Shown one piece after another: positions 7,178 to 45,585 of a stretch of DNA of 54,048 nt; position 1 is the first letter of the stretch; the number at the start of each line of letters is the position of its first letter. The position numbers were made by a program, and so were the translations under genes. The notes under the pieces were generated by a model. The model had not been told where the DNA came from, ran no database searches, and worked only from the letters and a program-made list of their open reading frames with translations. Location: positions 1,859 to 55,906 of the forward strand of contig JANQTG010000173.1 in NCBI GenBank assembly GCA_030731855.1, given 5' to 3'. The DNA is from Cellulophaga sp. Its GTDB lineage: Bacteria; Bacteroidota; Bacteroidia; Flavobacteriales; Flavobacteriaceae.

Positions 7178-7221
7178 AATTTAGTAAGACAATTAGTAAT
7201 TGCATTTATTTTTTTAATTTC

Positions 7222-7267
7222 ACTAACCACTAACCACTAACCACTAACCACTAACCACTAACCACTA
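7222..7267. repeat. perfect heptad tandem repeat (ACTAACC)x~6.6
   Basis: ACTAACCACTAACCACTAACCACTAACCACTAACCACTAACCACTA. Confidence 0.97.
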
Positions 7268-7276
7268 TCTCACTAA

Positions 7277-14446: not shown

Positions 14447-14488
14447 TAGTATTAAGTATAAGGTACAAAGTATAAGGACTAAAAAGTA
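14447..14488. repeat. degenerate heptad array (AAGTATA-like)
   Basis: TAGTATT AAGTATA AGGTACA AAGTATA AGGACTA AAAAGTA, starting 8 nt after the cvfB-like stop. Confidence 0.75.
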
Positions 14489-31570: not shown

Positions 31571-31619
31571 TTTTCAATTCTAAACTTTCAATTTTACATT
31601 TTCAAATTTCCATTTTCCA
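31571..31619. repeat. degenerate heptad array, 7 units in register
   Basis: TTTTCAA TTCTAAA CTTTCAA TTTTACA TTTTCAA ATTTCCA TTTTCCA, abutting the fumC stop codon (minus strand). Confidence 0.8.
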
Positions 31620-33017
31620 TTATTTCAAGCTCCCAACCATTTCTTCTGGTTTTACCCAATTATCATAATCTTCGGCGCTAACATAGCCTAAGTTTACGGC
31701 TTCTTGTTTTAAGGTAGTTCCGTTTTTATGTGCCGTATTGGCAATTTCAGCTGCTTTATAGTAGCCAATTTTTGTGTTTAAAGCCGTCACAAGCATTAGC
31801 GAATTGTTTAATAATTGGGTAATAACTTCGTGGTTAGGCTCAATACCTACGGCACAATTAACATCAAAACTTACACAAGCATCGCCTAAAAGTTCTGCTG
31901 ATTGTAAAATATTGGCAGCCATCATAGGTTTAAAAACGTTCAATTCATAATGGCCTTGAGTGCCACCAACACCAATAGCCACATCATTACCCATAACTTG
32001 AGCGCAAACCATCGTTAAGGCTTCGCACTGCGTAGGATTCACTTTTCCAGGCATAATAGAACTGCCCGGCTCATTAGCGGGGATGATGATTTCGCCAATA
32101 CCAGAACGTGGGCCAGAAGCCATCATTCGAATATCATTGGCAATTTTATTTAAGGCAATTGCTAACTGTTTTAAAGCACCATGACTTTCAACAATAGCAT
32201 CGTGAGCTGCTAAAGCTTCAAACTTATTTTCTGCCGTAATAAATGGTAAGCCTGTAAATTCCGCAATATATTTTGCTACTAAAACATCATAGCCATCGGG
32301 CGTATTTAATCCTGTTCCAACAGCTGTACCTCCTAAAGCAAGTTCAGAAAGGTGTGGTAAGGTATTTTTTAAGGCTTTTAGTCCGTGATCTAATTGAGAA
32401 ACATAACCAGAAAATTCTTGTCCCAAGGTTAGGGGAGTCGCATCCATTAAGTGAGTACGACCAATTTTTACCACATTCTTAAATTCAACAACCTTTTTTT
32501 GTAATGTATCTCTTAATTGTAACACTCCAGGGATAGTTACTTCTACTATTTTTTTATAGGCTGCAATATGCATGCCGGTAGGGAAGGTGTCATTAGAAGA
32601 TTGCGATTTGTTTACATCATCGTTTGGTTGAATCACTTTTTCGCCTTCGCCGATTACTTTTCCTGCTAATTCTTGCGCACGATTAGCAATTACTTCATTC
32701 ACATTCATATTACTCTGCGTTCCAGAGCCAGTTTGCCAAATAACTAACGGAAACTGATCATCGTGCATACCCGTCAAAATTTCATCACAAACTTTTGAAA
32801 TCAAATCTCTTTTTTCTTTAGTTAATACGCCAAGTTCTTCGTTGGTATAGGCAGCAGCTTTTTTTAAGTACGCAAAGCCATAAACAATATCTAACGGCAT
32901 AGACGCCACTGGGCCAATTTTGAAATTATTACGAGAGCGTTCTGTTTGTGCACCCCAATATTTATCAGAAGGGACTTCAACGTTACCCATCGTGTCTTTT
33001 TCTATTCTATAACTCAT
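31620..33017 (-). CDS. fumC: class II fumarate hydratase
   Basis: [51 protein letters not shown]. Confidence 0.97.
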
Positions 33018-38014: not shown

Positions 38015-38052
38015 TATAAGTTTTAGGTTTATAGCGTTAAATTTTAATAATA

Positions 38053-38087
38053 TTGAAACTTGAAACTTGAAACTTGAAACTTGAAAC
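38053..38087. repeat. perfect heptad tandem repeat (TTGAAAC)x5
   Basis: TTGAAACTTGAAACTTGAAACTTGAAACTTGAAAC between pyrR and pyrB. Confidence 0.97.
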
Positions 38088-38108
38088 TTCAACCTTTAAA
38101 CTAATAAA

Positions 38109-39035
38109 ATGAGCGAGTTAAGTGTAAACCACTTGTTAGGCATAAAATATCTTAAAGAGCAAGATATTCAGCTCATTTTTGAAACCGCAGACCATTTTAA
38201 AGAAGTCATCAATAGATCGATAAAAAAAGTACCGTCTTTACGCGATATTACCATTGCGAATATTTTTTTTGAAAACAGTACACGCACAAAATTATCTTTT
38301 GAATTAGCTGAAAAACGACTTTCGGCAGATGTCATTAACTTTTCCGCTTCTCAATCTTCCGTAAAAAAAGGAGAAACCTTAATCGATACCGTGAACAATA
38401 TCTTAGCGATGAAAGTCGATATGGTAGTGATGCGTCACCCCAATCCAGGAGCGGGAATATTCTTATCAAAACACGTAAAAGCGTCTATTGTTAATGCAGG
38501 TGATGGCGCCCACGAACACCCAACACAAGCCTTACTAGATTCGTATTCTATTCGAGAAAAACTGGGAGATGTTTCAGGTAAAAATGTGGTGATTGTTGGT
38601 GATATTTTGCACTCTAGAGTAGCCTTATCCAATATTTTTGCACTGAAATTGCAAGGGGCAAACGTAAAAGTTTGCGGCCCTAAAACGCTCATGCCTAAGT
38701 ATATTGAAGCTTTAGGTGTTACAGTAGAATCTGATCTTAGAAAAGCACTAAACTGGTGCGACGTAGCCAATATGCTTCGCATTCAAAACGAACGCTTAGA
38801 CATTAGCTATTTCCCAAGCACGAGAGAATATACACAACAATTTGGCGTAAATAAAAAATTGCTAGACAGTCTTGATAAAGAGATTGTGATTATGCATCCA
38901 GGACCTATCAATAGAGGTGTAGAAATCACAAGCGATGTAGCAGACTCTAAACAATCTATCATTTTAAATCAGGTAGAAAATGGTGTGGCCATTCGTATGG
39001 CAGTGATTTATTTATTAGCGTCAAAAATAAAATAG
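38109..39035 (+). CDS. pyrB: aspartate carbamoyltransferase catalytic subunit
   Basis: FFENSTRTKLSFELAEKRL; GDGAHEHPTQALLDSYSI; MHPGPINRGVEI. Confidence 0.97.
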   Translation: MSELSVNHLLGIKYLKEQDIQLIFETADHFKEVINRSIKKVPSLRDITIANIFFENSTRTKLSFELAEKRLSADVINFSASQSSVKKGETLIDTVNNILAMKVDMVVMRHPNPGAGIFLSKHVKASIVNAGDGAHEHPTQALLDSYSIREKLGDVSGKNVVIVGDILHSRVALSNIFALKLQGANVKVCGPKTLMPKYIEALGVTVESDLRKALNWCDVANMLRIQNERLDISYFPSTREYTQQFGVNKKLLDSLDKEIVIMHPGPINRGVEITSDVADSKQSIILNQVENGVAIRMAVIYLLASKIK

Positions 39036-39041
39036 AAACTT

Positions 39042-39377
39042 ATGATTTTTGATTCAGACGGAACAACAACTATTGTTCATCAAGAAAAAGCAAGCTTAAA
39101 ATTATTTTTAGAGAATCTAAATGCTGGCTACGCTAAAATTAAAAATGATCATTTGATTATCAATCTTTTTTCATTTTCTAAATTGACTAAAAACGATGTT
39201 TTAGAGTTTTTGAGCTTATCTAATACCCATAAAAAGTCTAAAAAGTCTTTTGTTTTAGTAACAGAAACCGTTTCTTATGATGATGTGCCCGACAGTATAA
39301 GTATCGCCCCAACCATTCAAGAAGCAAAAGACCTAATTGAAATGGAAGAAATTGAACGAGATCTTGATATTAATTGA
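39042..39377 (+). CDS. conserved hypothetical protein upstream of rnz
   Basis: 111 aa; positioned 7 nt after pyrB; acidic C-terminus EAKDLIEMEEIERDLDIN. Confidence 0.8.
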   Translation: MIFDSDGTTTIVHQEKASLKLFLENLNAGYAKIKNDHLIINLFSFSKLTKNDVLEFLSLSNTHKKSKKSFVLVTETVSYDDVPDSISIAPTIQEAKDLIEMEEIERDLDIN

Positions 39378-39405
39378 AAATTAAAAGTTGAAAATTATAA
39401 ATTAA
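39371..39405. repeat. degenerate heptad array, left flank of the four-helix-bundle cassette
   Basis: TAATTGA AAATTAA AAGTTGA AAATTAT AAATTAA; includes the upstream stop codon. Confidence 0.65.
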
Positions 39406-39422
39406 TTATTTAAAAATAGTTG

Positions 39423-39788
39423 ATGTCTAATAAGGGAAAAAATATTGTAGAAGAGAAAAGCTTCGATTTTGCATTAGCCATTATTAAAGAAGTTAAAAAT
39501 ATTCAAAATGAAGAAAGGGAATATATTTTGACAAAACAGTTAATTCGTTCAGGTACAAGTATAGGGGCAATGGTTCGAGAAGCGGAACATTCTGAAAGTA
39601 AAAAAGATTTTATACATAAAATGATGATTGGTTTAAAAGAGGCTAATGAAACAAGATATTGGTTAGAATTGCTTTATAAGTCAGATTATCTAGAAGAAAT
39701 TATTTTTAATACTTTAATGGATGATTGTACTCAGATTATTAAATTGTTGGTGGCAATTGTTAAATCTTCAAAAGCAAGTTTGAATTAA
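39423..39788 (+). CDS. four-helix bundle protein (S23/IVP family)
   Basis: EKSFDFALAIIKEVKNIQNEEREYILTKQLIRSGTSIGAMVREAEHSESKKDFIHKMMIGLKEANETRYWLELL; the LIRSGTSIGAxxxEAxxxxSxxDFxxKxxxxxKEAxExxYWLxLL pattern is characteristic. Confidence 0.93.
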   Translation: MSNKGKNIVEEKSFDFALAIIKEVKNIQNEEREYILTKQLIRSGTSIGAMVREAEHSESKKDFIHKMMIGLKEANETRYWLELLYKSDYLEEIIFNTLMDDCTQIIKLLVAIVKSSKASLN

Positions 39789-39825
39789 ATTTCATTTTCA
39801 ATTTTTCATTTTCATTTTTCAATTA
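39789..39825. repeat. degenerate heptad array, right flank of the cassette, roughly the inverse of the left flank
   Basis: TTCATTT TCAATTT TTCATTT TCATTTT TCAATTA; ends 4 nt before the rnz ATG. Confidence 0.65.
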
Positions 39826-39829
39826 TTCC

Positions 39830-40738
39830 ATGAAATTAACCATCCTCGGCTGTTACGCAGCAACACCACGAACAATGACCAACCCTACAGCTCAGGTGCT
39901 GGAGATTAAAAACCATATGTTTTTGATCGATTGTGGTGAAGGTACTCAGGTGCAGTTAAGGAAACATAAAATTCGGTTTTCTCGCATAAATCATATTTTT
40001 ATATCACATTTACACGGTGATCATTTTTTTGGTTTACCAGGTCTCGTTTCTACATTTAGGCTTTTAGGCAGAGATGCTGAAATGCATATTTATGGACCAA
40101 AAGGTATTGAAAAAGCAATACTTTTGTTGCTTAAATTAGGGAATTCATTTACCAATTATAAACTCGTTTTTCACGAGTTAACGAGTAAAAATTCAGAATT
40201 AATTTATGAAGATGATAAGGTTAGTGTAAGCACAATTCCTTTAGCACACAGGGTGTATACCAACGGATTTTTATTCAAAGAAAAAGTAGCCCCTAGAACC
40301 TTAAATATAGAAACTGTAACGCGTTACGGTATTGAAACTTGTTTTTTTCAGAACATAAAAAATGGAAAAGACATTGTTTTAGACGATGGTAGAACAATAA
40401 AAAATGAGGAATTAACTTTTGATCCTCCAAAACCCAAAAGTTATGCTTTTTGTAGTGATACCGCTTATAAGCCAGATATTGTTCCTTTAATTTTTGGTGT
40501 AGATGTGCTCTACCACGAAGCTACATTTTTAGAATCGCAATCAGATTTAGCCCCTAAAACGAAACATTCTACAGCAAAACAAGCAGCTTTAATAGCAAAA
40601 CTAGCAAGTGTTGGGCAATTGATACTAGGGCATTATTCTACTAGATATGCATCTATAGAATTATTTAAAGACGAAGCAAATGAAGTATTTGACCATGTAC
40701 TTCTGGCGGATGACGGTAAGGTTTTCGACTTTTCTTAA
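39830..40738 (+). CDS. rnz: ribonuclease Z
   Basis: MKLTILGCYAATPRTMTNPTAQVLEI; IFISHLHGDHFFGLPGLV; YAFCSDTAYKPDIVPLI; KHSTAKQAALIA. Confidence 0.95.
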   Translation: MKLTILGCYAATPRTMTNPTAQVLEIKNHMFLIDCGEGTQVQLRKHKIRFSRINHIFISHLHGDHFFGLPGLVSTFRLLGRDAEMHIYGPKGIEKAILLLLKLGNSFTNYKLVFHELTSKNSELIYEDDKVSVSTIPLAHRVYTNGFLFKEKVAPRTLNIETVTRYGIETCFFQNIKNGKDIVLDDGRTIKNEELTFDPPKPKSYAFCSDTAYKPDIVPLIFGVDVLYHEATFLESQSDLAPKTKHSTAKQAALIAKLASVGQLILGHYSTRYASIELFKDEANEVFDHVLLADDGKVFDFS

Positions 40739-45538: not shown

Positions 45539-45543
45539 TTTTT

Positions 45544-45585
45544 TAAGTATTAAGTAATGAGTATTAAGTATTAAGTTAAAGCGTA
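45544..45585. repeat. degenerate heptad array (TAAGTAT-like)
   Basis: TAAGTAT TAAGTAA TGAGTAT TAAGTAT TAAGTTA AAGCGTA, 6 nt upstream of the miaE-like start (minus strand). Confidence 0.8.

Follow-up and report, generated by a model that had tools for sequence, protein, structure and literature searches.

What does a gene of the S23/IVP family do between two protein genes, and why is it bracketed by inverted arrays of seven-nucleotide units? The window, by which we mean the whole 54,048-nucleotide stretch of DNA analysed here, belongs to a Flavobacteriaceae draft genome (G000, contig C173:1859-55906), and the gene in question occupies positions 39423..39788 of its + strand. The ORF comprises 121 aa from an ATG, or 122 aa from a TTG at 39420, and its product matches both Pfam 23S_rRNA_IVP (PF05635) over the whole domain (95.1 bits; cut-off 33.8) and the NCBIfam four helix bundle protein model TIGR02436 (106.8 bits; cut-off 24), with 2rld and 2gsc as homologous solved structures. 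These matches bear out the S23/IVP assignment made in a first-pass annotation of the sequence. The surrounding genes all lie on the + strand, beginning with pyrB (aspartate carbamoyltransferase; 38109..39035, OTCace domains) and continuing with a 111-aa ORF without family match in the profile search (39042..39377), the S23 gene itself, and rnz (39830..40738), whose Pfam matches indicate a ribonuclease Z of metallo-beta-lactamase fold. The two genes on either side of S23 appear to share a transcript. The left (5', G-rich) heptad array, AATTGAA-AATTAAA-AGTTGAA-AATTATA-AATTA, spans 39372..39404 (+; lag-7 detector G000:C173:41230-41262), and the right (3', C-rich) array spans 39789..39827 (+), stopping directly 5' of the rnz ATG. 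The two are imperfect inverses of each other, with a unit near AATTGAA. The TGA stop of the upstream ORF comes from the first unit of the left array and, because the array supplies this codon, the ORF ends in ...RDLDIN* here, as opposed to the conserved ...EMEEIERDLG(L/I)*.

The first-pass annotation had proposed that the left flank resembles the reverse complement of the right. Both arrays are indeed present and their inverted likeness stands, except that the letters printed there for the right flank are those of its reverse complement. Local inverted alignment of the two arms scores 20.5 against a shuffle mean of 14.2, and two separate computations place their inverted similarity at z 2.6 and 1.9 over dinucleotide shuffles, an excess that is modest because both arms are A/T-rich. 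The window locus by itself could not have borne the claim of a cassette; the family-level data do.

Inverted heptad arrays around S23 genes are a real and general observation, which we confirmed by aligning the left flank of each locus with the reverse complement of its own right flank and with those of all other loci. For the 38 S23 loci of the genus, the own inverted score is 18.76 and the cross score 13.37 (z 10.5; 0/20000 permutations), with a direct (non-inverted) control at z 2.8. For 76 usable loci from many phyla, drawn from named genomes, Bacteroidota, Cyanobacteriota, Chloroflexota, Pseudomonadota, Campylobacterota, Thermodesulfobacteriota and others, the corresponding scores are 23.76 and 16.60 (z 14.4; 0/20000 permutations). 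No matched inverted arms are seen at the flanks of 190 non-S23 genes of the window genome (z 0.1), nor at those of non-S23 genes in six genomes (z between -1.2 and 0.6). The S23 flanks also display the 7-nt period of heptanucleotide tandem repeats, with z-scores of 14.8, 11.0 and 8.5 at lags 7, 14 and 21 in the genus, where no other lag is strong, and of 31.9, 26.4 and 20.4 at the same lags across phyla. Tandem heptads accompany 104 of 115 S23 loci, compared with 97 of 400 random control pairs, and the units at these 104 loci fall into 63 classes, among which AATTGAT, AATTGTG and AAAATTG are most frequent. No one sequence marks the ends of the S23 cassette; the unit is particular to the site.

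This pattern holds at the scale of single genomes. The 12 S23 loci (13 hits) of the window genome carry mutually inverted arrays at both ends, with a different unit at each site, and the same flank pattern recurs in 17 congeners holding from 0 to 11 S23 hits apiece, many of them broken. On the question raised in the first-pass annotation, whether each S23 copy of the genome has inverted arrays, they flank all copies inspected in the window genome and most copies elsewhere. Matched arms are weak or absent at some loci, such as L136, L143 and a phage copy (L300) that has no arms; near-perfect ones occur at S23 genes on plasmids of Nostoc, Bernardetia and Treponema, e.g. (AAGTCGG)n/(CCGACTT)n and (TAATTCG)n/(CGAATTA)n. 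Within orthologous sites, the own arm score is only slightly higher than the cross score (z 2.9). GC-skew was considered as a sign of transcription direction and dropped, the rule of a G-rich left and a C-rich right arm being identical on both strands. Two plasmid contexts may be recorded here: in the Anabaena cylindrica plasmid pANACY.01 (L297) the S23 gene lies between cas2 and cas1 and runs opposite to both, and the cassettes of two Nostoc plasmids (L294, L296) adjoin XisI and XisH genes, the distribution of which has been compared with that of TAACTGA repeats (MacGregor 2015, PMC4679880).

The cassette is a discrete unit found at different genomic sites, as expected of a transposable element. 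Two Oscillatoriales contigs (cyanobacteria; L082 and L083) have 514 nt in common at 89%, comprising S23 and some 80 nt on each side, with no homology outside in 5.3 kb, and in many other pairs of loci homology is likewise confined to S23 and its arms. Protein and arms go together: for pairs of named loci at different sites the likeness of S23 proteins tracks that of the arms (Mantel r 0.42; 0/2000 permutations), and over all loci mean arm similarity climbs from 11.5 to 20.3 with S23 protein similarity, the Mantel test within the genus alone being not significant (r 0.066; 260/2000). The S23 tree mixes phyla, many of its rows being MAG contigs that are possibly mis-binned. A MAG contig labelled Bifidobacterium breve (L156), which has a dtd-site cassette of Flavobacterium type and is nested among the Flavobacterium sequences, is probably mis-binned or mislabelled. 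On the other hand, the S23 copies of the orf-rnz, dtd and cob sites form one clade for each site, and dN/dS values of 0.02-0.22 indicate purifying selection, under which S23 has been conserved at fixed sites over saturated synonymous divergence. Copies at single sites can be ancient, and movement must therefore be slow.

The history of the window site agrees with the patchy occurrence that the first-pass annotation had asked about. S23 is missing from this junction (orf-rnz) in all 29 relatives taken, one of which, the closest (G014), keeps a 136-nt empty inverted array with a different unit; the others show 2-33 nt, another ORF or short arrays. In many relatives (L023-L026, L030, L032, L040, L041) the junction is occupied by an unrelated ORF of ~165 aa (MSYLAQINIAKM...) that overlaps the upstream stop codon. 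The S23 of the window groups with same-junction S23 of Maribacter, Allomuricauda and Croceivirga contigs (support 99/93), and since it forms one clade with the copies of these three other genera, the insertion is probably old and was probably then lost repeatedly. A recent insertion is rejected on the same ground.

Successive states of such a history can be read at the hisH-hisA junction, compared here in 18 species. Six species retain a stop/start overlap (TAATG) and two a gap of 8-9 nt, and a full cassette is found in four, the copy of the window genome belonging to an S23 subfamily unrelated to the others (similarity 0.09-0.11). Among the remaining states, G012 has S23 coding remnants between arms, G002 and G006 a collapsed hairpin of 65 nt, G003 the right arm only, and G007 a C-terminal S23 remnant of the window-genome type. 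Comparison of TAATG with filled sites makes no target duplication evident and establishes no junction signature. The recJ site presents the same classes of state (pristine, full, remnant and solo array). The states seen at these two sites imply that deletion of S23 can yield solo arrays and that one junction can be filled repeatedly. A side observation concerns the 596-nt gap upstream of recJ in G007 (L263), where an ORF recognised by eye as GIY-YIG-type (MKLSYVYILKCSDGTFYTGVTSNLEKRF...) is flanked by REP-like hairpin sequences (TCACTTCGAGTGATTTCG... / ...GAAATCACTCGAACTGACG) beside a solo heptad array; it is possibly another intergenic cassette of like plan.

Arrays without S23 also abound in the window itself, all on the + strand: (CACTAAC)n at 7215..7274 (detector L158:9073-9132), AGTATTAAGTATAAGG... 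at 14448..14477 (L158:16306-16335), TTTTCCA-type units of the same family as the window S23 arms at 31590..31623 (L159:13448-13481; best own match L006, score 21), (TTGAAAC)n at 38044..38104 (L159:19902-19962), where it separates pyrB from a pyrR-like gene, and (AAGTATT)n at 45540..45580 (L160:7398-7438; best genus match L059, score 26), the last belonging to a family found on the hisH-hisA S23 arms of other species. By the lag-7 detector, run on samples of 120-535 kb, eight congeners have 0-17 heptad arrays per Mb and the window genome ~105. A congener with 11 S23 has 10 arrays per Mb, which rules out the notion that S23 copy number drives array number. Compared with the genome's own S23 arms, 50 S23-free arrays of the window genome give a mean best score of 18.56, above the maximum (18.37) of 2000 random arm sets from other species. 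Deletion of the S23 part can produce solo arrays, and S23-less arrays can largely be read as decayed cassettes. The suggestion in the first-pass annotation that empty arrays are decayed sites thus gains substance, both from the intermediates visible at hisH-hisA and from the heptad families that solo arrays share with the S23 arms of the genome. The arrays of this genome often string several units together as mosaics, and at two places (L163:15500-15560 and L167:9915-9960) a palindromic REP-like motif (GCACTGAGCGTNGNCGAAGTG) lies between them.

We consider it fairly probable that the feature is a copy of a widespread, minimal mobile cassette, selfish and of homing type, whose S23 protein and arms act together. 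The unit, of ~0.45-0.55 kb, consists of a heptad array, the S23 gene and an inverted copy of the array, and is placed after the stop codon of one gene and before the start codon of the next, along the direction of transcription; its expression would depend on read-through of the host operon. Base pairing between the arms, whether in single-stranded DNA or in the transcript, would form a hairpin whose loop holds the S23 ORF, as it does in rRNA IVS. We infer that S23, an Avd-related four-helix bundle, recognises its own arms, and the movement step, likewise inferred, would be one in which the protein helps the cassette to copy itself into intercistronic junctions or into homologous empty ones. 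The arms might be renewed by slippage and arm-to-arm copying, so that the unit drifts while left and right stay matched; copying of this kind at the DNA level would account for this combination. A homing-type cycle would then run from invasion through persistence and degeneration to loss and re-invasion, and long persistence under purifying selection combined with degeneration and re-occupation is what this cycle predicts.

The first-pass annotation had leaned instead towards a cassette acting in RNA. Stated for mRNA, such a reading holds that the arm stem is cut by RNase III, perhaps together with S23, so that the cassette is released and the flanking cistrons are separated, as in rRNA. The geometry is that of the helix-45 IVS of Coxiella burnetii, which has a terminal complementary stem, an S23 ORF in the loop and RNase III cuts in the stem (PMC4990558), and in RNAfold ~20 bp between the window arms close the ORF. 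Nonetheless, the whole-transcript folding energy of the window cassette is ordinary (z -0.51 versus shuffles) and does not exceed A/T-rich expectation, a measure that is uninformative in A/T-rich sequence. Two further observations tell against this reading: arm mismatches show no excess of G-U pairs on the sense strand (127 versus 175 antisense), a judgement from wobble pairs that A-rich flanks partly confound, and duplexes of the antisense strand equal those of the sense strand in strength. Selection on RNA pairing is therefore not supported. Solo arrays are nearly missing from divergent, promoter-bearing regions (1 in 10.1 kb, versus 49 in 49.3 kb made up of co-directional regions, with 38 in 40.6 kb, and convergent ones, with 11 in 8.7 kb), which speaks for processing of mRNA. 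So does the strict co-direction of S23 with its neighbours (same direction as both at 100 loci, against both at 4), but this would likewise be explained by a need for read-through transcription, and it also fits insertion via an RNA intermediate. On balance, we regard processing of mRNA as unlikely, and the original proposal is partly supported: a heptad-bounded cassette, patchy in relatives, is supported, and the RNA-level mechanism is not.

It might also be argued that S23 and its arms are a domesticated operon module, a cis-acting regulator (for instance, of translation of the downstream gene) kept for the benefit of the host, the remaining arrays being gene-less regulatory hairpins. Purifying selection on S23 at fixed sites, the single clades of the rnz, dtd and cob sites, and the position of the arms next to stop and start codons, with the 3' arm abutting the downstream start, speak for this reading. 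It fits poorly, however, with patchy loss that leaves no conserved replacement, with pristine overlapping TAATG in six congeners, with an unrelated S23 at one and the same site, with broken copies and with host operons as different as groES-groEL, leuC-leuD, a split metH, hisH-hisA and recJ, and we hold it to be quite improbable. Ordinary polymerase-slippage microsatellites among which S23 genes fall by chance, a reading that could appeal to the many solo arrays of the window genome and to the fact that, among long simple repeats, those of seven nucleotides are the most frequent in many bacteria (Mrazek et al. 2007, as cited in PMC4679880), are hardly credible and already contradicted by matched inverted arms specific to S23 genes (z 10.5-14.4, against ~0 for other genes) and by a unit that goes with the S23 gene.

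If the selfish cassette is indeed the right reading, its wider meaning deserves consideration. We advance only tentatively the possibility that it represents a new class of element, without nuclease, transposase or polymerase of its own, with ends set by inverted 7-nt arrays of free rather than fixed sequence, spread by a four-helix-bundle protein, and that rRNA IVSs as well as many of the heptanucleotide arrays in Bacteroidota and Cyanobacteria descend from it. Ends conserved in period and mutual complementarity, and not in sequence, would surprise specialists in mobile elements. Pairing of S23 with heptad arrays is not described in the literature searched, which was open-access only and makes this absence weak evidence. 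What S23/IVP proteins do and how IVSs arose, both called unclear (PMC4990558), are questions open since about 1990, and no origin is known for the heptanucleotide arrays of several phyla (PMC4679880); a link between the two would explain the nature of "orphan" S23 genes and the provenance of many such arrays, the cassette offering a source for some of these repeats. It also makes for a concrete system that lends itself to tests: the 0.5-kb element is self-contained, related genomes offer many natural sites in the empty, full or decayed state, and the small size of the protein suits it to direct binding assays.

Among known systems, REP/RAYT and MITE-like elements are likewise dispersed, short, inverted intergenic repeats, some of them non-autonomous. 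The S23 cassette differs in having no fixed terminal sequence, it encodes no integration enzyme or transposase, and the Y1 transposase expected of REP/RAYT or IS200/605 systems was found neither in the window genome nor in its closest relative, G014. With diversity-generating retroelements it shares a structurally related four-helix bundle, since Avd (4DWL) is related in structure to the PF05635 protein 2GSC (PMC10053308), but not the reverse transcriptase with template and variable repeats: RVT_1 is absent from several S23-bearing congeners, G001 and G008 among them. Absence from these genomes rules out reverse transcriptase and Y1 transposase as obligatory partners.

The STRR of cyanobacteria are heptanucleotide repeats. 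TAACTGA direct repeats, of fixed unit and unexplained origin, occur in Beggiatoaceae, Cyanobacteria and Bacteroidetes (MacGregor 2015, PMC4679880). Both resemble the arms described here in their tandem 7-nt units, their intergenic position near start codons and the phyla in which they overlap, but they have been described as fixed-unit direct repeats with no link to S23, whereas cassette units vary and flank S23 as inverted pairs; tandem arrays of TAACTGA were absent from the S23 loci examined. As opposed to the IVS of 23S rRNA, for which excision by RNase III is known, the cassette lies between protein genes, with 7-nt arrays as arms and a different unit at each site. The window locus is not within a 23S rRNA helix, both its neighbours being protein genes, and 20 S23 loci gave no rRNA or other Rfam match; lying outside rRNA, and so failing the location by which these sequences are defined, the cassette is therefore not filed among them. 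Complementary ends closing an ORF loop are nonetheless evident at the level of the family, if weak at the window locus alone, and the two systems have in common the same protein family, this looped architecture, a sporadic distribution and a suspected selfish nature.
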